A stretch of DNA of 64,000 nucleotides from Patescibacteria group bacterium (lineage in GTDB: Bacteria; Patescibacteriota; Patescibacteriia; Patescibacteriales; Patescibacteriaceae), in assembly GCA_028704945.1 (NCBI GenBank), contig JAQWEL010000003.1, forward strand, positions 72,037 through 136,036. Reading direction: 5' to 3'. Numbering within the stretch: position 1 is the stretch's first letter; each line of letters starts with the position of its first letter. Positions 4,796 to 28,982 of this stretch are shown one piece after another. Below the pieces are notes generated by a model that was given only the letters and a program-made list of their open reading frames with translations, made no database searches and was not told the origin of the DNA. Both the position numbers and the translations under genes were made by a program.

Positions 4796-7208
4796 ACAAT
4801 TTAATCGGCGTAAAAAAAATCAATCAAGCTTGATAAAATTTTTTATTGCTTTAGGCTACAATGAAATACGGATTATTAAAAAAGTTTGTCAGCCGTTGAT
4901 TAATTTTTTTATTACAATCGGCCAATTGTCTGAAAGAATTCTGACTGGATTTTGGCGCGTAATCGTTTTTACTATATTGTTGCCAGTCAATACTTTCCGT
5001 TTTTCGGTTCATATCGTTGAAATAACTTTTTTTAGGATAACAAAAGGCGTTAATAAAATAAGCAGTCATACTAAAAAGTCAGCTCAGGCCGCAGCTAAAA
5101 ACACTGGCAAGAAGTTGACTTATTGGCAGAAGCTTTTGGATTTTAAATTTAAGACGACTATTCTTCAGACCAAAAGAATTATTAAAGATAATAAAGATAA
5201 TTTATCAGCTGTTAAACTAAAACCGCAAAAATCATTGTTGCGTCCAGCGCTTTCTTTTGCTTTGCTTTTGATCATCTTGTTTTCGCCAGTTATCGGCTAT
5301 AGGAATTATCGTTTTTTTGTATCTTTAAAAGACAAGATCATTAGTCATGCCAATATCGCTTTAGCCGAAGCTTTTGATGCTAAAAGTTCTATCGAAAATC
5401 AGCAATTTGAGTCAGCTGGCAATAAATTTAACAAGGCTGGACAAAATTTACTTTCAGTTGAACAAAATTTAAGCGAGGTTAATGGTTTTATTTTTAAGAT
5501 AGCCAGCTTGATGCCAAACGAAAAAATGAAATTAGCTGGCGAGAGTCAAAACTTGGTCGAGTTAGGACAGTTAGGAGTCGCTATGGCTTCTGACATTAGT
5601 TTAGCAATAGATAATCTTTTTAGCCAAACAAAACCTAATCTAACCAGCCGTTTACGCGGATTTTTACCGCCAGCCGAAGAAGCTGCTAATAAGGCCGAAA
5701 AAATAGAAAAAATAATTTTGACGCTTAACGAAAAATCAATTCCAGCTGAATATCGAGAACAATTTAAAGTCTTGAAAGACAAGATACATTTTATTTCTTC
5801 AAGTATGAATGAGTTGACTGATTTAGCCGAGAAATTAGAAATATTTTTAGGTGGCCAAACAGACAAGCGTTATTTGATGGTTTTTCAAAATAATACTGAA
5901 ATGAGGGGGTCGGGCGGATTTATGGGAAGCTTCGCAGTAGTTGATTTTAGTAATGGCGCTATCAAATCAATCAAGACGCCTGGCGGTGGAACTTATGATA
6001 CTGAAGCTGGTTTAAGGCGTATTATTGCCGCACCAGAACCATTAAGGCTGCTTAATCCTTCTTGGCATCTGTGGGACGCTAATTGGTGGCCGGATTGGCC
6101 GACTAGCGCTCGTAAAATAATGTGGTTTTATGAAAAGTCAGACGGTTCCTCGGTTGATGGTGTGATTGCTATCACGCCTAATGTTATTATTGATTTGTTG
6201 AAATTAACCGGCCCGATTAATATGCCAGATTATAATGAAGTTGTCAGTGCTGATAACTTCATGGATGTCGTCCAAGCTATTGCCGAGCAAAAAACAGGCA
6301 AGACAGATACGCCAAAGAAAATTATTGGCGATCTGACTAATATTTTAATTGATAAATTGACCAAAGAATCAAATAAAGAACAATCAATTAAGCTTTTGGA
6401 TTTGATTGAAAATAATTTGACTCAAAAATATATCATTACTTATTTTAAAGATAATGATTTGCAAAAAAAGGTTATTGAAGAAGATTGGGGCGGAGCGATT
6501 AAAGAAACAAACGGAGACTACTTAATGATTGCTAATGCTAATATTGGCGGACAGAAGTCTGATAAAAAAATGTTCCAAACTGTTGAGCATGTGGCTTCAA
6601 TTGACAGAGAGGGTAATATTATCGATACGATTTACATTAAGCGCGACCATCGCGCCATCAAGGGCGAAGAATTTTGTGGCGTTTTGAATGTTAATTGGAT
6701 GAGAATTTATACTCCGCTCGGTTCTAAATTGATTGAAGCCGAAGGTTTTAAAGCGCCTGATCCGAAGTTAATAGAAAAGGTTCCGGATAATGCCGAGATT
6801 GATCCGTTAATAGTCAATGAACTTTCAGCCGAAGTTGATCCTTTAAGCGGGGTCAAGACTTATCGAGAAAACAACAAAACGGTTTTTGCCGGTTGGACGC
6901 AAGTAAATGCCGGACAAGCCTTTGATACGGTTATTAGTTATCGTTTGCCTTTTAAAGTTGAAAATATTAAAAACGATGCTAACGGTTTTGATAAGTTGCG
7001 ATCAACACTTTTAAATGAAAAACAGAACGAATTGGCTCGCTATACTTTATTAATTCAAAAACAACCAGGCAGCCAAAATGTTAGAGTTGTATCAAGATTG
7101 ATTCCGCCTGATTATTCCAGAATTTTATGGCAATATCCGAAAAAAGAAAATGGCGATTATTTCGCTCTCGACTCGGATCAGCTTTGGGCTTATTTATTAG
7201 TTAAATAG
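4779..7208 (+). CDS. DUF4012-domain membrane protein
   Basis: 809 residues. A basic N-terminal region with amphipathic or hydrophobic stretches precedes a clear membrane helix at about residues 152-172. A helical region follows (about 185-350). The DUF4012 core carries the signature QNNTEMRGSGGFMGSF near residue 370. The C-terminus is a large extracytoplasmic beta-rich domain. DUF4012 proteins are widespread in CPR and some Gram-positive genomes beside glycan genes; their function is unknown. The adjacent ligase and glycosyltransferases suggest an exported role in attaching or assembling surface polymer. The start overlaps the previous stop by 17 bases. Confidence 0.85.
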   Translation: MWTINKQFNRRKKNQSSLIKFFIALGYNEIRIIKKVCQPLINFFITIGQLSERILTGFWRVIVFTILLPVNTFRFSVHIVEITFFRITKGVNKISSHTKKSAQAAAKNTGKKLTYWQKLLDFKFKTTILQTKRIIKDNKDNLSAVKLKPQKSLLRPALSFALLLIILFSPVIGYRNYRFFVSLKDKIISHANIALAEAFDAKSSIENQQFESAGNKFNKAGQNLLSVEQNLSEVNGFIFKIASLMPNEKMKLAGESQNLVELGQLGVAMASDISLAIDNLFSQTKPNLTSRLRGFLPPAEEAANKAEKIEKIILTLNEKSIPAEYREQFKVLKDKIHFISSSMNELTDLAEKLEIFLGGQTDKRYLMVFQNNTEMRGSGGFMGSFAVVDFSNGAIKSIKTPGGGTYDTEAGLRRIIAAPEPLRLLNPSWHLWDANWWPDWPTSARKIMWFYEKSDGSSVDGVIAITPNVIIDLLKLTGPINMPDYNEVVSADNFMDVVQAIAEQKTGKTDTPKKIIGDLTNILIDKLTKESNKEQSIKLLDLIENNLTQKYIITYFKDNDLQKKVIEEDWGGAIKETNGDYLMIANANIGGQKSDKKMFQTVEHVASIDREGNIIDTIYIKRDHRAIKGEEFCGVLNVNWMRIYTPLGSKLIEAEGFKAPDPKLIEKVPDNAEIDPLIVNELSAEVDPLSGVKTYRENNKTVFAGWTQVNAGQAFDTVISYRLPFKVENIKNDANGFDKLRSTLLNEKQNELARYTLLIQKQPGSQNVRVVSRLIPPDYSRILWQYPKKENGDYFALDSDQLWAYLLVK

Positions 7209-16809: not shown

Positions 16810-17745
16810 ATGTTTTTGGGAATATTAATATCCCTACTTAATCCCTTTTTTGCTTCTTTGCAAAATGTTTTTGCTCAGATTGGCTTAAAAGACAAAAAAA
16901 TAGACGACTTAGCGGTTGTCTTCGCCAGGCTTTTTTATGTTGTGCCTATTTTATTGGTTTTCTTTCTAATAGTTGGAGCACCAAGTCAAATTAATCCTAA
17001 TTTCTTTTGGATTATGATGATTATGGTTCTTTTAGAAATACCAAGCCAATGGTTTTTTCATCAATCCATAAAGATGGGTCAATTAAGTGTGGTTATGCCT
17101 ATATCTACTCTTATAGCCATACCAATGCTAAGTTCTTTTTGGTTTTTTGGCGGTTGGAGCTGGTTGGGTTTATTTGGAGCTTTATTTATTACCGTTGGCA
17201 TTTATGTCTTGCAGGCGAGTAAATTGAAAGAAGGAGATGATATTAAATATGTTTTTTCTTGGTCTAATTTAATTAAACCAATCAAATCATTATTTAAAGA
17301 AAAATCTTCTCGTTTTATGCTCATTACTATTGTTTTGTGGAGCATAACGACTCCTTTGCAAAAATTAGCTTCCAGCGTTCCCGGAACAACTGAAACGCCC
17401 TTGAGCAATGTGGCTTTTATGGGTGTTGTCTATTTATCGCTGTGTTCTTTAGGAGTTGTTTTTTGGAGCAAAATAAAGTCGAAAAAAATTAAATCGATTA
17501 TTTATCCTCCACAAAAATTATCCTTAATGCCAATCGGTGGTTTTGCCGGATTTGGAGCCATAGCTCAATATTGGGCCTTGTCTATCTTGAATCCTGTTTA
17601 TGTAATTGCCTTAAAAGAAACAATCTTGATTTGGACTGTTATTTGGGATGTGCTTATTTTTAAACAAAAAATCAGCGTAGTCCAATTAATTTCCATTGTT
17701 ATAGTGATGATTGGCGCCGCGCTTATTAGCGTGACAATAATTTAA
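16810..17745 (+). CDS. DMT-superfamily (EamA-like) membrane transporter
   Basis: 311 residues, about ten membrane helices, arranged as two halves of the drug/metabolite transporter fold. The C-terminal half ends with the typical pattern GAIAQYWALSILNPVYVIAL, then ALKETILIWTVIWDVLIFKQ, and a last helix VQLISIVIVMIGAALISV. The substrate cannot be predicted; relatives export amino acids, nucleosides or sugars. A Shine-Dalgarno-like AGGGG sits about nine bases before the ATG. It is a single-gene unit with its own promoter and terminator. Confidence 0.8.
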   Translation: MFLGILISLLNPFFASLQNVFAQIGLKDKKIDDLAVVFARLFYVVPILLVFFLIVGAPSQINPNFFWIMMIMVLLEIPSQWFFHQSIKMGQLSVVMPISTLIAIPMLSSFWFFGGWSWLGLFGALFITVGIYVLQASKLKEGDDIKYVFSWSNLIKPIKSLFKEKSSRFMLITIVLWSITTPLQKLASSVPGTTETPLSNVAFMGVVYLSLCSLGVVFWSKIKSKKIKSIIYPPQKLSLMPIGGFAGFGAIAQYWALSILNPVYVIALKETILIWTVIWDVLIFKQKISVVQLISIVIVMIGAALISVTII

Positions 17746-17761
17746 CTATTTATTTAGTGTT

Positions 17762-17794
17762 AAAGTCTTGGTACATAAGTATTAAGACTTTTTT
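17762..17794 (+). terminator. Terminator of the DMT transporter gene
   Basis: AAAGTCTT (17762-17769) pairs with AAGACTTT (17784-17791), followed by more T. Confidence 0.7.
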
Positions 17795-17820
17795 GTTTGT
17801 TTTAGATAATTAGAATAAGA

Positions 17821-17849
17821 AAAAAGAATAAGTAATACTTATTCTTTTT
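17821..17849. terminator. Bidirectional terminator between convergent genes
   Basis: Perfect 14-bp arms AAAAAGAATAAGTA (17821-17834) and TACTTATTCTTTTT (17836-17849). The A-run and T-run at its ends let it stop transcription from both sides. The 48-residue minus-strand gene ends just to its right. Confidence 0.7.
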
Positions 17850-17862
17850 AGTTTGTAGACTG

Positions 17863-18009
17863 TTATTTTTTAGCAGTCTTTTTTCGATTAACTAATGTAG
17901 CCGCTGCAAGTTTTTTAGTTGTTGGGCTAGAAGTTTTGTTAGTCAAAGCTTCGGAAGCCGTTTTGGCAACTGACTTACTCGTGCGAACCGAATTTTTTTT
18001 ATTAACCAT
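17863..18009 (-). CDS. Small basic protein of unknown function
   Basis: 48 codons from the ATG at 18009 to TAA. The sequence starts MVNKKNSVRTSKSVAKTASE and is rich in Lys, Thr, Ser and Ala, with no membrane segment. The pattern of repeated S/T-K-x-V/L-A blocks resembles a family of small uncharacterised proteins seen in many bacteria with VAS.AAK.L-type motifs; that link is from memory and not tested. It reads divergently from the defence operon and ends at a bidirectional terminator. The rest of the 17746-18212 gap holds only that terminator and the promoter on its right. Confidence 0.5.
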   Translation of the reverse strand: MVNKKNSVRTSKSVAKTASEALTNKTSSPTTKKLAAATLVNRKKTAKK

Positions 18010-18171
18010 ATTTTGCTTATTTTCTAAAAAGCAGTATAATTAAAATATACCTGTTGATAGACGTTCGACCTTTAACTCCACTACGAGTTGCGTCAAAATA
18101 TATTGTGGTAATACCGCCACACTTTATTTTAGCATAAATGTTCAGTTTAAGTCAACTATGTTCCGCTTTAC

Positions 18172-18210
18172 TTGACATTATTTTTTATGAGATTTATCAT
18201 ATGTAGATAA
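18172..18210 (+). promoter_or_regulatory. Defence-operon promoter with overlapping operator
   Basis: TTGACA (18172-18177), 17 bp, TATCAT (18195-18200). An inverted repeat TTATC (18194-18198) and GATAA (18206-18210), seven bases apart, covers the -10 box and the expected start near 18207. It is a likely binding site for the XRE protein encoded just downstream. The transcript would begin about six bases before the first ATG. Confidence 0.65.
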
Positions 18211-18212
18211 TA

Positions 18213-18521
18213 ATGGTTAAAAATATGTTAGATAAATCAAATTTTTACATGAGTTTAGGGAAAAATATTGAAATAGCGAGAAAAGAGAAGGGTTATTCGA
18301 TGGATAAATTTATAGAAGTGGCAAATTTAGGTATGAGTAAAAGCACTTTGTCGGCTATTGAGAATGGTAAACAACAAATTTCAGCCTTTCAGTTATATTT
18401 AGTTACAGAAGCCTTGGACTTAAAATTATCTGAATTATTAAGGGGCTTAGAAGCTATGGGCCATCATGATTATGCTAATTTGCTCAACAAAAATGATTTA
18501 AATAAATTAGAAAGTTTGTAA
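18213..18521 (+). CDS. XRE-family helix-turn-helix regulator
   Basis: 102 residues. The HTH covers about residues 17-72: IEIARKEKGYSMDKFIEVAN, then MSKSTLSAIENGKQQISAF with the recognition helix, and LDLKLSELL. The ATG at 18225 is an alternative start. It is the first gene of a nine-gene defence operon, five bases before an ImmA/IrrE protease. XRE-ImmA/IrrE pairs are known repressor and cleaving-protease modules (DdrO/IrrE, ImmR/ImmA). By inference it represses the whole operon through the repeat over its own -10. Confidence 0.85.
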   Translation: MVKNMLDKSNFYMSLGKNIEIARKEKGYSMDKFIEVANLGMSKSTLSAIENGKQQISAFQLYLVTEALDLKLSELLRGLEAMGHHDYANLLNKNDLNKLESL

Positions 18522-18526
18522 TAAAT

Positions 18527-19072
18527 ATGCCAGATTTTATAGGTCAAAAAATTAAATTAGCAGTTGATAAAGCGGAAAAGATTTTGAGTGATCAAAAGAT
18601 TGTCAAGGTTCCTGTTGATATAGAAAGCATTGCTAAGTCTATGGGGATAGACGTGACAAAAATTGAATTTTCTAAGGACGAAATTTCAGGCGCTATCAAA
18701 ATGAAGGGTAAACAGGGTAATCCAATTATTGCCATTAACCAAAATCATTGTATTGAACGTCAAAGATTTACTATAGCCCATGAGATTGGGCATTTTGTGT
18801 TACATAGCATAGATAATATGCATATTGATTCCGCAGGTGTGTATTTTAGAGATTCAAACGCATCATCTTCAACGACAAATTTAAAAGAGGCGCAAGCAAA
18901 TCAATTCGCAGCTGAAATATTAATGCCACGAGGTCTTGTTATAAAAGATTTACAAGGAGATTTTAAATTAAAAAATAACAATGAGGATATTATGACAATT
19001 GCTAAGTTGGCTAAGAAATACAACGTCAGTCAACAAGCAATGATGATTCGCATTGGTGGATTAGTTATATAG
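18527..19072 (+). CDS. ImmA/IrrE-family zinc metallopeptidase
   Basis: 181 residues. The catalytic HExxH is FTIAHEIGHFVLH (H85, E86, H89). The second conserved block, EAQANQFAAEILMP (about 121-134), supplies the third zinc ligand. Members cleave XRE-type repressors after a stress signal. Here it follows the XRE gene by five bases, so it should relieve repression of the restriction and CBASS-like genes. The signal is unknown. The C-terminal part, with KKYNVSQQAMMIRIG, is the usual winged-helix-like tail. Confidence 0.88.
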   Translation: MPDFIGQKIKLAVDKAEKILSDQKIVKVPVDIESIAKSMGIDVTKIEFSKDEISGAIKMKGKQGNPIIAINQNHCIERQRFTIAHEIGHFVLHSIDNMHIDSAGVYFRDSNASSSTTNLKEAQANQFAAEILMPRGLVIKDLQGDFKLKNNNEDIMTIAKLAKKYNVSQQAMMIRIGGLVI

Positions 19073-19079
19073 AAAAAAT

Positions 19080-21590
19080 ATGCAAAAAGAAGCTAATGCA
19101 AGAATTAAAATAAATAATTTGCTCCAAGATGCTGGTTGGAGATTTTTTGATGATAAAAAAGGTCAAGCAAATATTTCGCTTGAACCAAATGTAAAAATTA
19201 CAAAAAAAGATATAGATGCTTTTGGTGAAGATTTTGAAACTACTAAAAATGGTTTTATAGATTTTTTATTACTTGATGATAATGGTTTTCCTCTTGTGAT
19301 TTTAGAAGCAAAAAGAGAAGATAAAAATCCTCTGGACGGCAAAGAGCAAGCAAGGAAATATGCACATACCGAGAATGTTCGTTTTGTTATTTTATCAAAC
19401 GGTAATTTGCATTATTTTTGGGATTTAGAGAGAGGTGATCCAGAAGTCATTACTGAATTTCCATCACAAGAGTCGTTAAAACATAGGCAAGGGTTCAAGC
19501 CTGACAACAAGAGACTGGCCGATGAAGTTGTTGAATTGGACTATATAGCTTTGACTCAAAATCCAAATTTTAAGGGAGACCCACGTTATATTAATAAGGA
19601 GACACGAGAGCAGTTTTTGTGGGATGAAAATTTACGTATATTAAGACCATATCAGTTAAAAGCTATACATGCCTTGCAGAAATCAGCGGAAGCTGGAAAT
19701 GATAGATTTCTTTTTGAAATGGCTACTGGCACTGGAAAAACTTTAATTTCTGCCGCAGTTATAAAGTTATTTTTACGTACCGGAAATGCAAAAAGAATAT
19801 TATTTTTAGTAGATCGGTTGGAATTGGAGGATCAGGCTCATAAGAATTTCGTTCGCTATTTAAATAATGATTTTTCCTCTGTTATTTATAAACAAAATCG
19901 TGATGATTGGAAGAAAGCAGAAGTGGTGATTTCTACCGTTCAAAGTCTTTCGGCTCAGGACAAATACAAAAAACTTTTTTCTCCTACAGACTTTGATTTA
20001 ATTATTGCTGATGAGTCACATCGAGCTATAGGAGGTAATTCAAGGGCTGTTTTTGAGTATTTTATTGGGTACAAGCTTGGACTAACTGCTACACCAAAGG
20101 ATTACTTAAAAAATGTTGATCTTCAAAAGTTATCGTATAAAGATCAAAGATCTTGGGAGCGACGACAGTTGTTAGATACTTACACTACTTTTGGTTGTAA
20201 AAATGGTGAACCAACATTTCGCTTTAGTTTATTAGATGGTGTTAAAGATGGTTTTTTAATTAATCCAATTGTTTCTGATGCACGAACAGATATAACAACA
20301 GAATTATTGTCGGAAAAAGGGTATGCTGTCATGATTGAAAAAAATGAAGGGGGTGAAGACGAGGAGACTTTTTTCCATAAGGATTTTGAAAAAAAGTTTT
20401 TTTCGGAAAAAACTAACCATGTGTTTTGCCAAACATTTATTGAAAATGCATTTAGAGATCCTATAAGTGGCGAAATCGGTAAAAGTATTATATTTTGTGT
20501 TAGTCAAAATCATGCATCAAAAATAACACAAATACTTAATCAGATGGCAAGTAAATTGTGGCCTGAAAAATATAATTCAGATTTTGCCATGCAAGTAACA
20601 TCAAATATTTCTGATAGTCAGCAGTTTACTATTAATTTTGCGAATAATAATCTTCATGGACATACAAAGTTTTTAGAAAATTATAAATCAAGCAAAACGA
20701 GAGTTTGTGTAACGGTAGGTATGATGACTACTGGTTATGACTGTGAAGATATATTAAATCTCGCTCTTATGCGTCCAGTTTTTTCACCTACAGATTTTAT
20801 TCAAATAAAAGGACGAGGCACGAGAAAGCATGTTTTTGATTACACTGACGAATATGGCGAAAGACATAAAATACCAAAGGATAATTTTAAGTTTTTTGAT
20901 TTTTTTGCGAATTGTGAGTATTTTGAGGAGAAATTTGACTATGATGAGATTTTACGGCTACCTATTAAGCAAAAGGAGGGTAAGGGGGGCGATTCTGTCG
21001 GAGTAGAAGTTTCTGAGATAGAGGTATTTAATCCCGATAAAGTTAAAACACTTACCGAGACAGCTGTGGGGATAGATGGAATGAAAGTTGACAGAAAGCT
21101 TTTTGAAAAAGCAAAAGAAGAATTGCAAAAAGATTCAGATGTTAAAACGGCTGTTGAAAATGAGCAGTGGGATAGAGCTATTCAGATAATGCGTGATAAG
21201 TATGAAGACAAACCACAATTGTTTATAAATCTTGAAAAAATAAGAAAAAGTGAAAATCTTGATCGCAGAATTTCTTGGCGAGAGTTTTTGGAGCGTGCGT
21301 TTGGTATTATTGATGGTTTTAAATCTAAGGACGAGAAACTTGAAGAAGAGTGTGAAAAATTTATATCAATTTACAAGCCTGAAAGTAAATATGTTACTCA
21401 TATTAAGAATTATTTGAAGGCATATGTAACAGACGAAAAATTTAGAGATATAATTAATAATAAACAGTATGCGGAGCTGAATGTCTATGCAGGTTTTACT
21501 ATGCCTGAATTTAAAGAATTAAATGGTTGGCGCGAGGTAGTTCCTGAATATGTAAAGGATTATGTTCCAGTTAATGTTTATATGAAATAA
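19080..21590 (+). CDS. hsdR: Type I restriction endonuclease, R subunit (EcoEI-like)
   Basis: 836 residues. The N-terminal nuclease domain has GFIDFLLLDD and VILEAKRE, giving D61 and E76-x-K78 of the PD-(D/E)xK site, and EQARKYA with the Q motif. The SF2 translocase follows: Walker A MATGTGKT (about 215), IIADESH (about 310), GLTATPK and QIKGRGTRKHVFD. An EcoEI-type C-terminal region (about 690-830) binds the methylase complex. It cuts unmodified DNA after ATP-driven translocation. All motors and nuclease residues are present, so it is probably active. Codon usage looks different from the flanking housekeeping genes (more ATA, ACA, AGA). Confidence 0.92.
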   Translation: MQKEANARIKINNLLQDAGWRFFDDKKGQANISLEPNVKITKKDIDAFGEDFETTKNGFIDFLLLDDNGFPLVILEAKREDKNPLDGKEQARKYAHTENVRFVILSNGNLHYFWDLERGDPEVITEFPSQESLKHRQGFKPDNKRLADEVVELDYIALTQNPNFKGDPRYINKETREQFLWDENLRILRPYQLKAIHALQKSAEAGNDRFLFEMATGTGKTLISAAVIKLFLRTGNAKRILFLVDRLELEDQAHKNFVRYLNNDFSSVIYKQNRDDWKKAEVVISTVQSLSAQDKYKKLFSPTDFDLIIADESHRAIGGNSRAVFEYFIGYKLGLTATPKDYLKNVDLQKLSYKDQRSWERRQLLDTYTTFGCKNGEPTFRFSLLDGVKDGFLINPIVSDARTDITTELLSEKGYAVMIEKNEGGEDEETFFHKDFEKKFFSEKTNHVFCQTFIENAFRDPISGEIGKSIIFCVSQNHASKITQILNQMASKLWPEKYNSDFAMQVTSNISDSQQFTINFANNNLHGHTKFLENYKSSKTRVCVTVGMMTTGYDCEDILNLALMRPVFSPTDFIQIKGRGTRKHVFDYTDEYGERHKIPKDNFKFFDFFANCEYFEEKFDYDEILRLPIKQKEGKGGDSVGVEVSEIEVFNPDKVKTLTETAVGIDGMKVDRKLFEKAKEELQKDSDVKTAVENEQWDRAIQIMRDKYEDKPQLFINLEKIRKSENLDRRISWREFLERAFGIIDGFKSKDEKLEEECEKFISIYKPESKYVTHIKNYLKAYVTDEKFRDIINNKQYAELNVYAGFTMPEFKELNGWREVVPEYVKDYVPVNVYMK

Positions 21591-21600
21591 TAAAAAAATT

Positions 21601-23508
21601 ATGCTCGATCAAATTACAAAAAGAAAAATAGACTCTGCTAGGCAGATTCTTGTTGGTAAAGTGCCTGATCCAAAAGCTCAAGTTGAACAAATTACAACGG
21701 CGCTTGTTTACAAGTTTATGGATGATATGGACAAGGAATCCGAGGAACTTGGTGGAGAGGCTAAATTTTTTGCAAATGAATTTAGTCATTACTCTTGGAC
21801 AAAGCTTTTGGATAGCAAACTTTCTGGTCAGGAAAGGCTTGATTTGTATGATCAGGCAATCTCAAATATGCCAAAAAATCCTAATATACCACAACTTTTT
21901 AGGGATATTTTTAAGGGGGCATTTTTGCCATACAGAGACACACGAACATTGTCATTGTTTTTAAAAGAGATAAATGAATTTACATACGAGCATAGTGAAA
22001 ATTTAGGTAATGCTTTTGAATACCTTCTTTCAATACTTGGAAGTCAAGGTGACGCCGGTCAATTTCGAACCCCTCGTCATGTAATTGATTTTATTGTTGA
22101 TGTTGTTAATCCCACAAAAAAAGACAAGATACTTGATCCAGCTTGTGGAACAGCAGGTTTTTTAATATCTGCTTACAAGCACATATTGAAACAAAATAAA
22201 GAGAAAGCACTTACCCCTGACGAAAAACTACGTTTAATGAACAATTTGGCTGGATATGATATATCGCCGGACATGGTAAAGCTTGCACTTGTTAATATGT
22301 ATTTGCATGGCTTTCCTGAGCCAAAGATCCATGAATACGATTCTCTTACTAGTGAAAAACGTTGGGACGAAAATTATGATGTAATACTTGCCAACCCTCC
22401 ATTTATGACTCCTAAAGGTGGCATTAATCCGCATAAAAGATTTTCAGTTCAATCTAGTAGAGCCGAGGTTCTTTTTGTTGATTACATAATAGAGCATTTG
22501 ACTATAAATGGTAGGGCTGGCATCGTTGTGCCAGAAGGAGTTCTTGGAAATTCTAATGCATCATATTTTAAAAAGATTAGAGAATTAATCTTGGATAATG
22601 TATGGGCGATAGCATCTCTACATCCATTTACATTTGCCCCTTATGCTGAAGTAAACACGTATATTTTATTTTTAGATAAAACTTTGGCAAAAAAAGCAAA
22701 TGATGTGCTTTTTGTAGATATTAATAATGATGGATTTGATAAAAGTTCTCAAAGAAGAGAGATTGCTTTAAACGATCTTCCGTCTGCAGTGGAATTGCTT
22801 GATGATTTCAGACAGTCGATTATTAACGATAAATTATTTACATCAAAAAATAGTATAGGACATAAAGTTGTTTCTAAGAAAAAAATAAAGAACAACTCGG
22901 AATATTATTTATTAGTTAAAAAGTATTCTGATCTTGAAATGCCTGACACAAAACATGCGGTTTCGCTTCTTGGAGATTTGATTACAGAAAAAAAGGAAAA
23001 GGCAAAAAATAATAATTATACAGTGTGGTCGGTGTCAAATAAGTATGGGTTTATAAATTCTGAAGATTATTTTGATAAAAAAATAGCATCAGTAAATACA
23101 AGCAACTATAAAGTTATTAAGCCTTATTATTTTGCTTTTAATCCATCACGTATAAACGTTGGATCAATTGCTTGTAATTTTTCAGAAAAAATTGGAATAG
23201 TAAGTCCGATGTACACTCTTTTTGAAATAAAAGATACAAACAGAATTGTGCCAGATTTTTTATTAATGTATTTAAAAAGTGATTTATGTAAAGAGCATAT
23301 AAATCATAAAATACAAGGTGCGACTAGAAAAGTTTTAAAAAAAGATGACTTGTTTTCGTTGAAGATACCAGTGCCGAGCAAAGATAAGCAGATTGAGATA
23401 TTAAATTTGGTAAAAAAAGAGCAGGATGCGATTAATGATCTGGATGAAACAATTAAAAAGCATAAAAAGTTAATTAATGGTTATATTGAAAATATTTGGG
23501 CTTCCTAA
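21601..23508 (+). CDS. hsdM: Type I methyltransferase fused to a one-TRD specificity domain (HsdM-S)
   Basis: 635 residues. The N-terminal helical domain is followed by the N6-adenine methylase core with motif I DPACGTAGFLISAYKH (about 179) and motif IV NPPF (about 264). From about residue 455 the protein continues as an HsdS-like unit: one target-recognition domain (SLLGDLITEKKEKAKNN onward) and a C-terminal coiled coil (EILNLVKKEQDAINDLDE). No separate hsdS exists in the operon. A single TRD per chain suggests that two copies dimerise and read a symmetric bipartite site. It protects host DNA and directs the R subunit. Confidence 0.9.
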   Translation: MLDQITKRKIDSARQILVGKVPDPKAQVEQITTALVYKFMDDMDKESEELGGEAKFFANEFSHYSWTKLLDSKLSGQERLDLYDQAISNMPKNPNIPQLFRDIFKGAFLPYRDTRTLSLFLKEINEFTYEHSENLGNAFEYLLSILGSQGDAGQFRTPRHVIDFIVDVVNPTKKDKILDPACGTAGFLISAYKHILKQNKEKALTPDEKLRLMNNLAGYDISPDMVKLALVNMYLHGFPEPKIHEYDSLTSEKRWDENYDVILANPPFMTPKGGINPHKRFSVQSSRAEVLFVDYIIEHLTINGRAGIVVPEGVLGNSNASYFKKIRELILDNVWAIASLHPFTFAPYAEVNTYILFLDKTLAKKANDVLFVDINNDGFDKSSQRREIALNDLPSAVELLDDFRQSIINDKLFTSKNSIGHKVVSKKKIKNNSEYYLLVKKYSDLEMPDTKHAVSLLGDLITEKKEKAKNNNYTVWSVSNKYGFINSEDYFDKKIASVNTSNYKVIKPYYFAFNPSRINVGSIACNFSEKIGIVSPMYTLFEIKDTNRIVPDFLLMYLKSDLCKEHINHKIQGATRKVLKKDDLFSLKIPVPSKDKQIEILNLVKKEQDAINDLDETIKKHKKLINGYIENIWAS

Positions 23509-23515
23509 CACATTT

Positions 23516-23713
23516 ATGCTTAGTAAATTAATTATTGTACTAATAGTTTTGCTTGCAGTTTGGGGTATCTCTATTGTATTTTCAAAGAATTTTTGGAGAT
23601 CAGTGGGTGGGCATGTGAAAGATGGCATAGCAAAGAAAATTAGCAAGGTCATTATTAGTCTAATAATTTTTTCAATTATAGTGTTGGTGGCTTCAATAAT
23701 GCAAAAGAAATAA
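23516..23713 (+). CDS. Two-helix micro-membrane protein in the defence operon
   Basis: 65 codons from the ATG at 23516, seven bases after the hsdM stop. An in-frame ATG at 23477 would overlap hsdM and add 13 non-hydrophobic residues, so I prefer the shorter form. Two hydrophobic helices (about 3-20 and 42-60) flank a basic loop, WRSVGGHVKDGIAKKISK. No family recognised. It sits 13 bases before the CD-NTase gene. By position it may belong to the CBASS-like unit as an extra membrane component; this is inference. Confidence 0.6.
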   Translation: MLSKLIIVLIVLLAVWGISIVFSKNFWRSVGGHVKDGIAKKISKVIISLIIFSIIVLVASIMQKK

Positions 23714-23726
23714 TTATAAATTTGTT

Positions 23727-24707
23727 ATGTCTATTATTGAATCAAAATTACAGAGCTTATTAGATGGCGAGATAAATTTAACGCAAACTCATGTCATGCA
23801 AGGCTCTACCAGCCATACATATATTCGAAATTTATTAGCCAATAGAAGACGAACGGATTCATCATTTCCATGGTTGCTTGATGGTGATTTTTTGACTGGA
23901 TCATATGCCAGAGGAACAAAGCTACATCCGCTTGATGACATTGATGTTATGATAGTTTTAGATGGTGCTGGCTTAGTGCCAACCGGAATAGAGGATACGC
24001 ATTACGTTGAGGGCAATACTGACGGCATACATAGCCCTATTCATAATCATATTAATCAAGATAATACACTAGATTCACATGCCGTTTTACATGCTTTTCA
24101 TAAAACTTTAAATCAATCACATCCAGAATCTAAGATTAAAAAAGATGGACAATCTGTTAACGTGCAACTTAAATCAAGTAATCTCGGTATTGATATAGTC
24201 CCATGCTTTCATATAATTCCCTTTGAGATTGGACAGCAAGATTTTTATTATATCCCAATGGGTAATAATAACCCGTCTTGGTTGAAAACTAATCCAAAAA
24301 TTGATCAAAATATTTCAAAAAACTTGCACGATAGACATAATAAAAAATTAAAAAGTGTTATCAAGCTTGTTAAATATTGGAACAGAATAAAAAACAATGA
24401 AAGGTTGAGATCATATCACTTAGAAACGATTGCATGGTATGTATTCCATAATCATCCATCGGCCATAGCAACAATATCGGATGGTGTTAGATATTTTTTT
24501 AGTCATGCAAATGATTATCTTGTAGGACAATTATATGAAGCTACCGGTTTTGGTGGCATGGTAGATTCTTATCTTTCAAGTGATGATCGTCAACTATCAA
24601 TTAATGCAGTTGATTCGGCGAAAAAGGCTCTTCAGCCTCAGGCGTTACTACCCTCGCTAAATGCCCAAGCAGGCTATTGGCAGTCGGTATTTGGTGATAA
24701 ATTTTAA
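23727..24707 (+). CDS. CD-NTase (SMODS-type cyclic oligonucleotide synthase)
   Basis: 326 residues. The nucleotidyltransferase core reads LTGSYARGTKLHPLDDIDVM: the GS loop at 58-59 and the metal-binding D71-x-D73. The third carboxylate is D156 in LGIDIVPCF. The helical C-terminal half has WLKTNPKIDQNISKNLH and LVKYWNRIKNNERLRSYHLE, as in DncV/CdnA-like enzymes. Such enzymes make cyclic di- or trinucleotides when phage infection is sensed, and these switch on a killer effector. The next gene is a SLATT membrane protein, so the pair is a minimal CBASS-like system. The exact nucleotide product cannot be read from the sequence. It is not a CCA-adding enzyme or a poly(A) polymerase. Confidence 0.85.
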   Translation: MSIIESKLQSLLDGEINLTQTHVMQGSTSHTYIRNLLANRRRTDSSFPWLLDGDFLTGSYARGTKLHPLDDIDVMIVLDGAGLVPTGIEDTHYVEGNTDGIHSPIHNHINQDNTLDSHAVLHAFHKTLNQSHPESKIKKDGQSVNVQLKSSNLGIDIVPCFHIIPFEIGQQDFYYIPMGNNNPSWLKTNPKIDQNISKNLHDRHNKKLKSVIKLVKYWNRIKNNERLRSYHLETIAWYVFHNHPSAIATISDGVRYFFSHANDYLVGQLYEATGFGGMVDSYLSSDDRQLSINAVDSAKKALQPQALLPSLNAQAGYWQSVFGDKF

Positions 24708-24711
24708 TTAT

Positions 24712-25194
24712 ATGGATAATAGACAAAATTTAATGAAATACGCAGAAGAGTCGGCCTATTCTTCAAAAGGTCATTTTAGAACTGCAGATTGGACAAAGTC
24801 TTCTTTGAAGTTATATATTGGTTTACCGATTATTTTGTCTATTTTTATCATTATTTTTCCAGACATGCCAATATGGTTAAGTAGAATTTTAAGTTTTTTA
24901 AGTATTGGTTCTTCAATAATGGCTTTAATTTCACCTGCAATAAGTAATCAAGATAGTGCACTAAAAAATGTTAACGACCATATGTCGTTGGGAAACGAGT
25001 ATTTAGCTTTGCATAAAGATATAAGAAATATTTCGACTTCAATAACAATTTCAGATGATCAAATAAAAGAAGTTTCTCGGAGAATAAAATTGCTAGATGA
25101 TAAAACAAATGTTTTGCAAATTAGTTTTGCAGGGAGAATATGGTCGAAATGGAGAATTGAAAGGGAAATGGATCTTGATTGGATAAAAAAATAA
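24712..25194 (+). CDS. SLATT-domain two-helix membrane effector
   Basis: 160 residues from the ATG at 24712, four bases after the synthase stop. A short cytoplasmic N-terminus (YAEESAYSSKGHF) is followed by two membrane helices (about 34-52 and 57-78). A long helical tail with HMSLGNEYLALHKDIRNI follows, the layout of SLATT proteins (SMODS- and SLOG-associating two-TM effectors). SLATT proteins are thought to form membrane pores or disrupt membranes when a nucleotide signal arrives. Direct linkage to a CD-NTase supports that role. The family call rests on layout and context; the sequence is divergent. Confidence 0.72.
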   Translation: MDNRQNLMKYAEESAYSSKGHFRTADWTKSSLKLYIGLPIILSIFIIIFPDMPIWLSRILSFLSIGSSIMALISPAISNQDSALKNVNDHMSLGNEYLALHKDIRNISTSITISDDQIKEVSRRIKLLDDKTNVLQISFAGRIWSKWRIEREMDLDWIKK

Positions 25195-25197
25195 CAT

Positions 25198-25947
25198 ATG
25201 TCAGAGTATTATAACCCCAAAAGAACAAAAAATATCTTTGATCCAAGATCAAAAGAGCCGTTCAAAATCAGTCGATCTAAGATTGATATGTTTTTGAATT
25301 GTCCGAGATGTTTTTATGTTGACCGTCGCTTAGGCGTTGGCACACCTCCCGGATTTCCATTTAATTTAAACTCAGCAGTCGATGCTTTATTGAAGAAAGA
25401 ATTTGATATTCACCGAGCGAAAAATACCGCTCATCCATTAATGAGGGCCTATGGCTTAGATCTTGTGCCATTTGATCATGAAAAAATTAATGAGTGGCGT
25501 GAGAATTTTGTCGGTGTGCAATATTTGCATAAACCAACTAATTTTTTAGTTACTGGTGCAGTGGATGATTTATGGGTGGATAAAGACGGCGTAGTTTATG
25601 TCGTTGATTATAAATCAACCAGCAAATCAACCGAAGTTAACTTGGATGCCGATTGGCAGATTGGTTATAAGAGGCAAATGGAATTTTATCAGTGGCTGAT
25701 GCGAAGAAATGATTTTAAAGTATCTGATACCGGTTATTTTGTTTATTGTAATGGGCAAAAAGATCGAGAAGCATTTGATGCTAAACTCGAATTTGATATT
25801 AAAATCATCCCATACACCGGCAATGATTCTTGGGTAGAGACAGAATTGATTAATGCTCATAATTGCTTGATGAGCATTGAAATTCCAAAAGCTGGGGCTA
25901 ATTGTGATTTTTGTAATTATTTTGAAGCAAGGAAAAAGTTTGATTAA
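25198..25947 (+). CDS. PD-(D/E)xK nuclease with a four-cysteine site (Cas4/RecB-like)
   Basis: 249 residues. The RecB-type nuclease core carries TGAVDDLWVD (D123/D124), VVDYKST (D137-Y-K139) and the QxxxY motif QMEFY (160-164). Cysteines C35 and C38 near the N-terminus and C236 and C239 near the C-terminus frame the nuclease as in Cas4 and AddB, where they hold an iron-sulfur cluster. It starts three bases after the SLATT stop and one base before the macro-domain gene. There are no cas genes or CRISPR repeats in the window, so a Cas4 role in spacer acquisition is unlikely. It could be a defence or repair nuclease. Confidence 0.85.
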   Translation: MSEYYNPKRTKNIFDPRSKEPFKISRSKIDMFLNCPRCFYVDRRLGVGTPPGFPFNLNSAVDALLKKEFDIHRAKNTAHPLMRAYGLDLVPFDHEKINEWRENFVGVQYLHKPTNFLVTGAVDDLWVDKDGVVYVVDYKSTSKSTEVNLDADWQIGYKRQMEFYQWLMRRNDFKVSDTGYFVYCNGQKDREAFDAKLEFDIKIIPYTGNDSWVETELINAHNCLMSIEIPKAGANCDFCNYFEARKKFD

Positions 25948-25948
25948 T

Positions 25949-26467
25949 ATGGCAAGGATTACAATAATTAAAGCTGATATAACCCAATTAAATGTTGATG
26001 CCATAGTTAACTCAGCTCATCCATCATTGATGGCTGGAAGTGGTTTGTGTGGCGTTATTCATAAAATGGCTGGCAAAGAGCTTGAGCGGGAGTGTGCGTC
26101 TTTGGGTGGTTGCGAGAAAGGACAAGCAAAGATTATTGGCGGATACAATCTTAAAGCTGGCCAGATTATTCATACCGTTGGGCCACATTATTTTTTTGAC
26201 AACGAAAAAGCGCCGGAATTATTGGAAAGTTGTTATTTAAGTATTTTAAGGGTAGCTAATGAGAACGAGTTGAAATCAATAGCAATACCATCCATATCAA
26301 CTAATATTTACAAATATCCAATTAATGAGGCCGCATCTATCGCATTAAAAACGGTTAGTAATTTTTTGGAAAACGAGAATCAGCATTTAGAAGATATTGT
26401 GTTTGTACTAAATTCAGACGATCACAGGCTTATCTATGATGAGTTATTTAAGATTTATTTTAAGTAA
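25949..26467 (+). CDS. Macro-domain (ADP-ribose-binding) protein
   Basis: 172 residues, start at the ATG at 25949, one base after the previous stop. Macro-domain landmarks: KADITQLNVDAIVNSAHPSL (D10 binds adenine, N21 the ribose), GSGLCGVIHKMAGKEL, GGCEKGQAKIIGGYNL and IIHTVGPH. Family members bind ADP-ribose or hydrolyse ADP-ribosyl or O-acetyl-ADP-ribose groups. It is the last gene of the defence operon. It may remove ADP-ribose marks or bind a nucleotide product, but nothing in the sequence settles that. Confidence 0.87.
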   Translation: MARITIIKADITQLNVDAIVNSAHPSLMAGSGLCGVIHKMAGKELERECASLGGCEKGQAKIIGGYNLKAGQIIHTVGPHYFFDNEKAPELLESCYLSILRVANENELKSIAIPSISTNIYKYPINEAASIALKTVSNFLENENQHLEDIVFVLNSDDHRLIYDELFKIYFK

Positions 26468-26476
26468 TTATTAAAT

Positions 26477-26518
26477 AAAAATCGTTTTAATTATCTATTG
26501 AAGCGGTTTTTTGTTTGT
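26477..26518 (+). terminator. Terminator of the defence operon
   Basis: Fifteen-base arms 26477-26491 and 26497-26511 pair along their whole length (with some G-U) around a 5-nt loop and end in T-rich sequence. This marks the 3' limit of the nine-gene unit. Confidence 0.85.
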
Positions 26519-26564
26519 TTTTTGCTTATTTTTGTGCTAAAGTGTTTGAAATAAGTTGGATTTT

Positions 26565-28982
26565 ATGGAATTTAATAAAGAGCAAACAGACATAATTAAT
26601 AATCTTGAAGGAGCGCTTTTAGTGTCGGCTCCGGTTGGCACCGGCAAGACAACTGTCTTAACAGAAAGAGTGGTTAAAGCGATTGAGGAGGGTATCGAAC
26701 CCGCCTCAATTTTGTGTTTGACTTTTACTAATCGCGCGGCCGAAGAAATGAAAAGTCGCATCAAAGCTCGTTTAAATAATCCAGATAAATACTCTGATTT
26801 AACAATCAGCACTTTCCATGGCTTTTGCGCTAAATTCTTAAGAGAAGAGGCCAAAGAAATTGGCTTGGCTCATGATTTTGTTATCGCTGACGATGTGGAG
26901 CAGTTAGAAATATTAGATAGAATCTTAGCTAATCATCCTAAGATTTTAGAATTAGAATTGAATCGTTCTGATATCTTAGAAAAATTTTATAAAGATCGTC
27001 TGTATAATATTTATTATCGTTATAATTTTATAAACTCTAAACCAACCGAATTGCCAGCCCCATGGCCGGAAATAATGGAGGATTATTATCAAGCTTTGCA
27101 CAGCGCCAATGCGGTTGATTTTAATGAGTTGGTCATTTTAACTATCAGCGCCTTATATGAAAATGCTAATGTTTCTAAACGCTGGCAAAATCGTTTTAAA
27201 TTTATTGAATTAGACGAATTTCAAGATACCCACTTATCAGAGTATTTGGTTATTAAAGAGTTAGCCAAACAATGTAAAAATATAACCTTGGTCGGTGATT
27301 TAGATCAGACTATTTATGGCTGGCGAGGCTCGCAACCGCAAAAGATTGCCAAACTCTTTAAGAGCCATTTTGCGCCGGTAACTGAGTTTGCTTTAAAAGA
27401 AAATTATCGTTCCGACCCTAATTTATTGCCTTTATTTAACAAAATTTCATCTGATATTAATGGCGAGTATAATGTTGAAAATATTATTAACAGTAATATT
27501 GAGGTTAAGGAATATTACAATAACGAAGAGGAAATAAATAGCTTAACAGTTAAAATAAAAGAATTAAAAAAGCTTGAACCAAAAGCCAAGGTGGCTGTTT
27601 TAGTCCGCAATAATTTTCAAGTCAATAAGATAGCTGAGATTTTAGCGCTCAATAATATTGAACACATCACTGTTGACCAATATAATTTTTTCCGCCGCCA
27701 AGAGGTTCGTGACGCTTTTGCTTGGTTAAAGATTATTTTTAATAAATTAGATTTAGAATCAATCAGACGGGTAGTGGAACGGCCAGGCAAAAAAATAGAT
27801 CGCCAAATTGTTGAGCAAGTTAATTCCGAGGGCAAACACATCGGTTTTAAAATGTCTGATTTTTTAAATTTTTCCAATTATCGCCAAGCCGAACCATTTG
27901 CTGATTTATTAGCTGTCTTAAAGAATGGCCGAGCCGTGGTAATTGATACGGAAACAACCGGCGTTGATGTCAGCAAGGACGAAATTGTCCAAGCCTTTGC
28001 TATGGAGATTATCAATGGCAAAGTCGGTGAGAGAAAAGAATGGCTTTTAAAAAATAATAAACCGGTTGGCAGCTCATATCATATCCATCGTTTAACTGAC
28101 GAATATTTGGCTAAAAATGGTCAGGAACCCAAAAAAGCATTAGAGGAATTTATTAATTTTATCGGTTCTGATATTGTCATCGGTCATAATGTTAATTTTG
28201 ATTTAAGCATTTTAGAAGAAAATGCTGTTAGGGCTGGCTTGAAATTTGTTAACACTAGATATTACGACACTTTAGATATTGCCCGCCGTTATGTCGAGGC
28301 GCCAAATTATAAATTAGAGACTTTATCTCGGCTTCTAAATGTGCATCAAGCCTCTCACAATGCCGAGGACGACGTTTTAGCTTGCTGGGGCTTACTTGAT
28401 TACTTGAAAAATGATTTAGCGGCTGGAGCGAATTCAAGAGCCAAACTTTTTTCCGCCTTTAGTAAAAATTTTATTTCATTAGCTTCTGATTTAGCTCGTT
28501 GGCAACTTATTGCTAAAGTTAAAAGGCCGGCAGAATTATTAGAGGATATTTTGAATGAATCCGGCTTAATGGATTATTACAGCCAAGACGCTGGCGCAGA
28601 TAAAAGATTAAAGTCATTAGATATTTTAAAAAAATTATTTATTGATTTAGACGATCAAACATTAATGCCTAAAGAAAATCTATTAAAGATTCTATCTTAT
28701 GGATCATTGGTTAAAAATATTGATTTCTTAGGCTTAGACGAGGGCAAAGTGCCGATAGTTACTATTCATCAAGTGAAAGGACTTGAATTTGATTATGTTT
28801 TTATGCCTTTTTTAAATGAAGGCAGCTTCCCAAGCCGTCGAAAAAATGTTGATATTGAGGAAGAAAAAAGAGTTTTTTATGTGGGTGTTACCAGAGCCAA
28901 AAAAAGTTTATACTTAAGCTATAGCCAATTTAATAATTACGGTTACGGACAAGCTAAAAGCCAGTTTCTTGCTTATTTTTAA
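26565..28982 (+). CDS. UvrD/PcrA-type helicase with an inserted DEDDh exonuclease
   Basis: 805 residues from the ATG at 26565 (a TTG nine bases earlier is less likely). SF1A motifs: PVGTGKTTVLTERV, LTFTNRAAEEMKSRI, STFHGFC, IELDEFQDT, VGDLDQTIYGWRG, ENYRSDPNLL, then TIHQVKGLEFDYVF and EEKRVFYVGVTRAKK near the C-terminus. Between motif IV and motif V, about residues 455-615, sits a complete DnaQ-like 3'-5' exonuclease: VIDTETTG, GHNVNFDLSIL and HNAEDDVLACW give the D, E, D, D and H residues. One chain could unwind DNA and digest a 3' end. It probably works in repair. Confidence 0.9.
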   Translation: MEFNKEQTDIINNLEGALLVSAPVGTGKTTVLTERVVKAIEEGIEPASILCLTFTNRAAEEMKSRIKARLNNPDKYSDLTISTFHGFCAKFLREEAKEIGLAHDFVIADDVEQLEILDRILANHPKILELELNRSDILEKFYKDRLYNIYYRYNFINSKPTELPAPWPEIMEDYYQALHSANAVDFNELVILTISALYENANVSKRWQNRFKFIELDEFQDTHLSEYLVIKELAKQCKNITLVGDLDQTIYGWRGSQPQKIAKLFKSHFAPVTEFALKENYRSDPNLLPLFNKISSDINGEYNVENIINSNIEVKEYYNNEEEINSLTVKIKELKKLEPKAKVAVLVRNNFQVNKIAEILALNNIEHITVDQYNFFRRQEVRDAFAWLKIIFNKLDLESIRRVVERPGKKIDRQIVEQVNSEGKHIGFKMSDFLNFSNYRQAEPFADLLAVLKNGRAVVIDTETTGVDVSKDEIVQAFAMEIINGKVGERKEWLLKNNKPVGSSYHIHRLTDEYLAKNGQEPKKALEEFINFIGSDIVIGHNVNFDLSILEENAVRAGLKFVNTRYYDTLDIARRYVEAPNYKLETLSRLLNVHQASHNAEDDVLACWGLLDYLKNDLAAGANSRAKLFSAFSKNFISLASDLARWQLIAKVKRPAELLEDILNESGLMDYYSQDAGADKRLKSLDILKKLFIDLDDQTLMPKENLLKILSYGSLVKNIDFLGLDEGKVPIVTIHQVKGLEFDYVFMPFLNEGSFPSRRKNVDIEEEKRVFYVGVTRAKKSLYLSYSQFNNYGYGQAKSQFLAYF

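Follow-up and report, generated by a model that had tools for sequence, protein, structure and literature searches.

A restriction–CBASS–nuclease gene string behind a putative repressor–protease switch in a Patescibacteria genome

Cleavage of the repressor CapH by the protease CapP controls immune operons, according to two reports (PMC13373217, PMC12255303). For another regulator pair, CapK and CapS, the first report places 88 of 443 pairs directly downstream of a restriction–modification (RM) system and proposes coordination of both layers (PMC13373217); the idea of layering is itself already in print there. A further report (PMC12259885) describes a high density of defence systems in genomes of the candidate phyla radiation (CPR) and counts Paceibacteria among the most diverse groups. 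Here, we analyzed a string of defence genes in a 64,000-nucleotide stretch of an uncultured, ultra-small Patescibacteria group bacterium (contig JAQWEL010000003.1, positions 72,037 to 136,036; hereafter, the window), in which a CapH/CapP-like pair precedes a type I RM system, a cyclic oligonucleotide-based anti-phage signaling system (CBASS), and a PD-(D/E)XK nuclease. We favor, with some reserve, the interpretation that this string is a mobile, modular, layered anti-phage operon under one repressor–protease switch. No description of an RM–CBASS–nuclease operon, or of this nuclease as a recurrent tail, was found in searches of open-licence papers.

The eight-gene unit and its regulatory head

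A preliminary description of this DNA had proposed a nine-gene operon between a promoter at 18172 and a terminator at 26477. All nine open reading frames (ORFs) were intact, lay on the forward strand within 18225–26467, and were separated by gaps of 1–13 bases (5, 7, 10, 7, 13, 4, 3, and 1 in order, with refined starts). The ATG of the helix-turn-helix (HTH) gene at 18225 was refined by comparison, and the starts of the micro-protein (23516), SLATT (24712), and macro (25949) genes came from reading the DNA. Both flanking signals were recovered, the promoter by scanning and the terminator by folding (z −4.8, with 0/200 shuffles as good), the latter hairpin being absent from the list of a simple terminator scan. 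The co-directional defence string, restriction preceding CBASS behind a repressor–protease head, stood; the ninth, macro-domain gene did not belong to the unit.

The adjacency was searched for among relatives, as the preliminary description had suggested, and was found again in another family. Among 98 genomes, the CD-NTase had four matches at E ≤ 0.001, namely its own genome (G000), G096, and two distant ones. In G096 (Candidatus Falkowbacteria), the order repressor, protease, HsdR, HsdM-S, micro-protein, CD-NTase, SLATT, and nuclease was identical, and this comparison confines the conserved unit to the first eight genes, from the XRE repressor to the PD-(D/E)XK protein. Because the identity of HsdR (88%), CD-NTase (87%), and SLATT (89%) exceeded that of RpoA (64%), the data point to transfer of the unit between families; the micro-protein and protease were 69% and 67% identical. 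The ratio of nonsynonymous to synonymous rates for CD-NTase and SLATT against G096 was approximately 0.06, with silent sites near saturation, and sequence comparison thus shows the CBASS genes to be under purifying selection. In 50-residue blocks, HsdM-S of the two genomes was 82–98% identical up to residue 300 and 22–45% identical thereafter, an alignment in which the specificity part is seen to be exchanged.

Two further genomes, G050 and G074, share with the window both the head (leader, promoter, repressor, protease) and the nuclease tail, and differ from it in the interior. Their proteases were 75% and 68%, and their nucleases 78% and 63%, identical to those of the window. Their interiors hold an unrelated type I system, with an HsdR 24–25% identical to that of the window and 71% identical between the two, along with genes for proteins of 227 and 321 residues and TspO in G050 and of 232 and 231 residues in G074. 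The leader and promoter boxes are kept ahead of these unlike interiors, and therefore one regulatory head precedes different cargo. At the level of alignment, the content and order of the operon, its kept head and tail, and its exchanged inside are established.

Approximately 220 bp upstream of the start codon could be aligned in all four genomes; further upstream, the window departs from the other three, which carry another small gene in place of its 48-residue divergent gene. The position and spacing of promoter P2 recur in the four genomes as TTGACA-17-TATnnT, together with a GTCAAC..TGTT box, and the GTATAAT of the outer candidate promoter P1 and the repressor start MLDK are common to all four. 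A model built from sequence alone over 95 positions of the leader detected the four genomes at E ≤ 1e-21, one other weakly (0.007), and, under stricter filters, no other of 111 genomes of the order; the strong matches were the same four genomes that have the repressor–protease head. Two hairpins were predicted for the leader of each of the four, with single folds (z −1.9 to −3.3 relative to simply shuffled sequences) that are suggestive only and weak support from RNAalifold consensus folding. The leader was rejected as a known RNA, there being no Rfam match. It may be a short RNA, an attenuator, or operator DNA; the dyad within it is a candidate operator or terminator-like hairpin, and the box ahead of P2 is a putative operator.

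At the operon head, the HTH repressor is directly followed by an M78 protease with an HExxH motif, as in CapH/CapP operons. The M78 model spans residues 36–175 of the 181 residues, and the capP model was aligned over its positions 7–150 of 242; by this profile coverage, the protease has no space for the GAF-like sensor domain found at the C-terminus of proteins in the PprI/CapP size class, and the pair is therefore labelled CapH/CapP-like. PprI senses single-stranded DNA by means of its GAF-like domain, and without this domain it neither binds such DNA nor is stimulated by it (PMC10904395).

Table 1. Features of the operon and its flanks in the window (positions are those of the window)
Feature	Position	Strand	Evidence
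Small divergent gene, 48 aa, Lys/Ala-rich, upstream of operon	17863–18009	−	Translation, alignment, ORF list
Candidate outer promoter P1, TTGCTT-16-TATAAT	18013–18040	+	Alignments; promoter read by eye
Conserved leader between P1 and P2	18049–18142	+	Alignment, folding, sequence-only model
Dyad TGTGG-N8-CCACA	18104–18121	+	TGTGA...TCACA in two relatives
Conserved box GTCAACTATGTT, candidate operator	18151–18162	+	AACASTGTT in other three genomes
Operon promoter P2, TTGACA-17-TATCAT	18172–18200	+	Motif scan; alignment of four genomes
XRE/HTH repressor, CapH-like	18225–18521	+	HTH_3 2.5e-9; PADLOC capH 5e-7
M78/ImmA-IrrE metallopeptidase, 181 aa, HEIGH motif, CapP-like, short	18527–19072	+	Peptidase_M78 9e-22; PADLOC capP 1e-32
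HsdR, EcoAI-like, 836 aa	19080–21590	+	ResIII 5e-39, HSDR_N; NCBIfam EcoAI type 5e-72
HsdM fused to one specificity (target recognition) domain	21601–23508	+	N6_Mtase 8e-47; one Methylase_S domain
Micro-protein, 65 aa, two hydrophobic stretches	23516–23713	+	Between RM and CBASS; identity to G096 copy
CD-NTase (CBASS cyclase)	23727–24707	+	Pfam SMODS 3.5e-17, above cut-off; PADLOC Cyclase 6e-55
SLATT/2TM effector	24712–25194	+	PADLOC 2TM effector 6e-11; SLATT_4 42.7 bits, cut-off 55
PD-(D/E)XK protein, Cas4/AdnA/Exo5 fold, constant tail	25198–25947	+	PDDEXK_1 8e-12
Macro-domain protein, last gene of string, outside conserved unit	25949–26467	+	Macro profile 2e-34
Terminator hairpin with U-tract	26477–26511	+	Folding against shuffles

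Catalytic motifs were searched as patterns, and all of those sought were found in the operon proteins. HsdR carries nuclease and translocase motifs (EAK, GTGKT, DESH, and QIKGRGTR) and scored 243 bits against the NCBIfam EcoAI-type model (cut-off 550). HsdM carries the N6-methyltransferase motifs DPACGT and NPPF along with its N6_Mtase match; in place of a separate HsdS with two target recognition domains, a single Methylase_S domain is fused to it in a half-S architecture, and it is therefore termed a type I-like M-S fusion. Profile searches gave no family match for the micro-protein. The CD-NTase has the nucleotidyltransferase motif GSYARGT...DID...IDIVP and scored 143.5 bits against CBASS_cyclase_b, below the cut-off of 200; the adjacent effector gene begins 4 bases 3′ of it.

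Restriction and second-line genes around the nuclease

The structure model of the PD-(D/E)XK protein (pLDDT 80.5) gave its best VIA-align Z scores with Cas4 (7mi5, 11.4), AdnA (7sjr, 10.6), RecE (3h4r, 10.4), Exo5 (7lw8, 10.0), and ACE1 (9iac, 8.7), these five at root mean square deviations of 4–6 Å; MGME1 was also matched. Cas4, AdnA, RecE, MGME1, and Exo5 are nucleases acting on DNA ends. The protein contains D124, VDYK, and Q160 motifs and CxxC pairs at 35/38 and 236/239, and scored 25.3 bits against the curated Cas4 model TIGR00372, short of its cut-off of 65. The model thus predicts a Cas4/RecB-type exonuclease fold, and a shared fold does not establish function. No cas genes were present among the scanned operon proteins; no CRISPR search was run.

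At a threshold of 1e-6, 17 of the 111 order genomes matched the alignment of this protein (including one fragment and one weak match in a long ORF); at 1e-10, so did 130 of the 380 class genomes, 105 of them, as a row count, at E < 1e-60. The census sample comprised 74 loci (58 from the class, 2 further from the order, the first 13, and the window), with seven IMG/VR loci taken separately. The 58 class loci were hand-picked from the higher entries in the list of 130 genomes, several contig-end genes being passed over, and the shares are not unbiased. Included are the nuclease fragment L029 and the gene L027, which is cut by a contig end; L027 and L171 were kept though without a gene call. Neighbor names were partly read from N-termini. 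The restriction queries were derived from the loci themselves, and removal of self-matches (leave-one-out) lowered the count from 16/74 to 14/74.

In these 14 of 74 loci (6/16 order, 8/58 class), restriction genes preceded the nuclease by no more than 4 kb on its own strand; they lay upstream on the opposite strand in 3/74, and downstream on either strand in none of the 74 (Fisher p 3e-5 against the 14 upstream); over approximately 9 kb, they were found in 16/74. Among the IMG/VR loci, whose contigs may be host pieces, two of seven had RM within 4 kb and three of seven over 9 kb. PADLOC matched 90 upstream proteins to 297 families and 81 downstream proteins to 42, numbers that count models and not loci.

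RM was found directly or nearly so before the nuclease in L142, L154, L168, L172, L200, L203, and L207. Elsewhere, a second system stands between the two: an unrelated CBASS in L141 (cyclase 2e-104, 2TM 6e-60), Gabija with GajA and GajB in L146, and a UG13b reverse transcriptase in L023. In other loci, the genes are of type III, and SIR2 and HerA (L160) or a HerA-like gene (L174, after a type III-like gene) follow the restriction gene, or PDC-S06 and AbiV follow type III RM (L162), each before the nuclease. AbiP2 and UG13a reverse transcriptases precede the nuclease in L152 and L157, respectively, where RM was not found. G026 has HsdR, HsdM-S, a UG13b reverse transcriptase, and the nuclease, and G017 has an HsdR broken in frame, a DUF3800 gene, HsdM-S, a 548-residue nucleotidyltransferase-like protein, and a nuclease fragment. 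The G017 locus (L029) appears as a decaying relative, its HsdR spread over two frames and its nuclease match limited to the first 33 residues.

No confident family was found for the second-slot proteins of G050 (227/321 aa) and G074 (232/231 aa) or for proteins of L178 (488 aa), L157 (344 aa), and L155 (344 aa). Candidates for second-line systems left unassigned by profiles lie, in or near the second slot, at 6775–8425 in L019, 10244–11621 (−) in L025, 7023–8054 in L155, and 4385–5848 in L178.

Relatives of the head were few. A scan of GTDB contigs with the protease alignment returned three loci, all already-known relatives, and the closest named relatives of the head are a Parcubacteria GW2011 genome, a Ca. 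Falkowbacteria metagenome-assembled genome (MAG), and a Paceibacterota MAG. Among 379 genomes of the phylum, just two other proteases passed 1e-25 (G308 and G330, approximately 38% identity); that of G308 is adjoined by an HTH gene, and the other island queries had no match in G308. In viral contigs, searches with the CD-NTase alignment and with the repressor found no relatives, and the protease alignment drew 80 distant loci (26–45% identity). For plasmids, the neighborhoods of 5 of 40 listed matches were inspected (two cyclase, three protease). RM was in the same operon as the cyclase in neither of the two, a Nostoc plasmid carrying type I RM on the opposite strand at a distance of approximately 3 kb, and a ThiF-family gene was near in two of the three protease neighborhoods. 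Short protease–repressor pairs near ThiF-family genes would fit a role of such pairs as local switches.

Insertion, proposed mechanism, and alternative readings

The preliminary description had regarded the nuclease and macro genes as older residents with codon use closer to the chromosome. In the same-genus genome G001, rpsI and uvrD are approximately 430 bp apart, with just an ORF of approximately 50 codons between them; in the window, an EamA gene and the whole string occupy this interval. Comparison with G001 therefore shows insertion of the string at a site empty there. In G001, rpsI and the one nuclease gene share a contig but are approximately 22 kb apart, and the rpsI–uvrD interval was also without queried island genes in G005 (4.5 kb) and G006 (1.5 kb). 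The macro gene had no match in 12 other family genomes or in G096, on which ground it was rejected as part of the unit; its five matches were distant and all in one family of the order. GC content at third codon positions was indeed near the host mean (0.31 over 29 window genes) for the nuclease (0.30) and macro (0.31) genes, the other seven lying at 0.22–0.29, whereas a codon-choice score ranked macro with the genes least like those of the host (z −2.1) and SLATT as host-like. The empty interval and the unmatched macro gene led us to reject the idea of older residents, which the weak and mixed codon evidence does not sustain either. No convincing attachment repeats were found around the island.

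Among the neighbors, the gene that we read as EamA-type transporter-like (16810–17745, between rpsI and the island) is not between rpsI and uvrD in G001. The UvrD/PcrA-like helicase at 26565–28982 has a DnaQ-type exonuclease domain (RNase_T, residues 461–610) within its UvrD_C region and full-length homologues (49–53% identity) in G001, G005, and G006. Downstream of the G096 operon (L018) are a PDC-S18 candidate defence gene (2.6e-60) and a gene that we read as a tyrosine recombinase, at 5472–6365 (−) and 2467–3372 (−); homologues of both lie after the G074 operon too.

For co-transcription, repressor cleavage and its signal, the order of action, and the nuclease substrate, we infer the following. 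In a quiet cell, the XRE repressor would keep its own promoter low while the M78 protease is idle; activated by some signal, the protease would cut the repressor, and the whole string would be expressed. Restriction would act first. As a second layer, a cyclic nucleotide from the CD-NTase would open the SLATT membrane effector and halt the cell if restriction fails, and the PD-(D/E)XK protein would most likely trim or destroy the DNA ends left by restriction. Restriction and second-line modules are swapped between the constant head (leader, promoter, repressor, and protease) and the constant PD-(D/E)XK tail.

Several observations weigh against this interpretation. In 58 of the 74 loci, no RM was found over the approximately 9 kb preceding the nuclease on its strand, and as we read them, many of these loci have ordinary-looking neighbors, so that the nuclease also exists apart from RM. 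The full eight-gene set occurs in 2 of 111 order genomes, including the window, and the head with its leader in only four; the G026 and G017 loci, with RM, a second gene, and the nuclease or its fragment, had no match to the head. The protease is too short for a GAF-like sensor, and NCBIfam cut-offs were unreached for the CBASS cyclase, SLATT, and EcoAI-type HsdR. Internal promoters are possible, with a promoter-like site scoring 11/12 at 24190 inside the CD-NTase gene. Across 17500–27500, promoter-like sites numbered 42 against 46.6 expected and terminator-like sites 13 against 5.4, with intragenic forward-strand ones at 18776, 19122, and 21634; a sequence scan is no proof that internal promoters are absent.

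In one alternative, mobile elements simply gather defence genes, the nuclease being a landing landmark or hitch-hiker, with no joint control or action. Defence genes are known to cluster, the copies in G096 and G074 have recombinase-like genes nearby, the nuclease is often apart from RM, and most genes have separate histories, as the protease and HsdR identities to G096 illustrate (67% versus 88%). Such clustering would not lead one to expect the same-strand order with few-base gaps, RM strictly upstream of the nuclease (14 versus 0), or a leader and promoter conserved before differing cargo, and we consider it unlikely. ImmR/ImmA pairs control integrative elements, and the same recombinase-like genes, together with the size match of such pairs to the short M78 protease and HTH repressor, would fit a switch that regulates a mobile element, or a selfish, addiction-like unit, whose enzymes serve mainly its upkeep and not host defence; we find this improbable, as the window has no gene read as a recombinase between rpsI and uvrD, the promoter region suits regulation of the operon itself, and the exchanged specificity domains fit selection by foreign DNA.

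With layered control by one switch retained as the preferred reading, a wider proposal can be put forward tentatively: a Paceibacteria cassette of restriction, an exchangeable second-line system, and a conserved exonuclease-type closer that would be a general partner of restriction in the clean-up of cut phage DNA, with a subfamily in which a leader and GAF-less switch control both layers. One switch ahead of both layers and a second slot refilled by CBASS, Gabija, SIR2-HerA, AbiV, or reverse transcriptase would make layering testable by module swaps, and the second slots are places to seek unknown second-line systems. An uncharacterized, strongly conserved Patescibacteria nuclease family is thereby brought out as a likely restriction partner.

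Comparison with described systems

The closest described loci are the CapH and CapP CBASS operons, which, as later papers report from Lau et al. (2022), share an HTH repressor beside an M78 protease heading an operon with a CD-NTase; the PADLOC capH and capP models matched here accordingly. In the window, by contrast, type I RM lies between the switch and CBASS, and the protease, a weak match to CapP of PDB 7t5t (3.9e-4), has 181 residues versus 291, with no space for the C-terminal sensor domain. Type I RM loci in which an abortive gene is embedded (PrrC/EcoprrI and rlo genes) are alike in holding a restriction system and a back-up killer in one locus, but here the back-up slot holds whole systems (CBASS, Gabija, SIR2-HerA, or reverse transcriptase), followed by one conserved nuclease.

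The nuclease shares its predicted fold and D124/VDYK/Q160 motifs with the Cas4/AdnA/Exo5 exonucleases, including the Argonaute-associated Cas4 (ACE1). It differs from Cas4 in having two CxxC pairs, as opposed to the one-plus-three Cys of Cas4, in its link to RM and not CRISPR, and in falling far under the Cas4 model cut-off.

The CapK and CapS loci, which lie sandwiched between RM and either CBASS or another immune operon (PMC13373217), likewise combine RM and a later-acting immune system around a damage-type regulator. Their regulator differs and sits after the RM operon, whereas here the switch precedes both RM and CBASS, and a conserved nuclease closes the string. The operon thus extends the known CapH/CapP and CapK/CapS theme, and the rule of a nuclease tail could be more than an extension.

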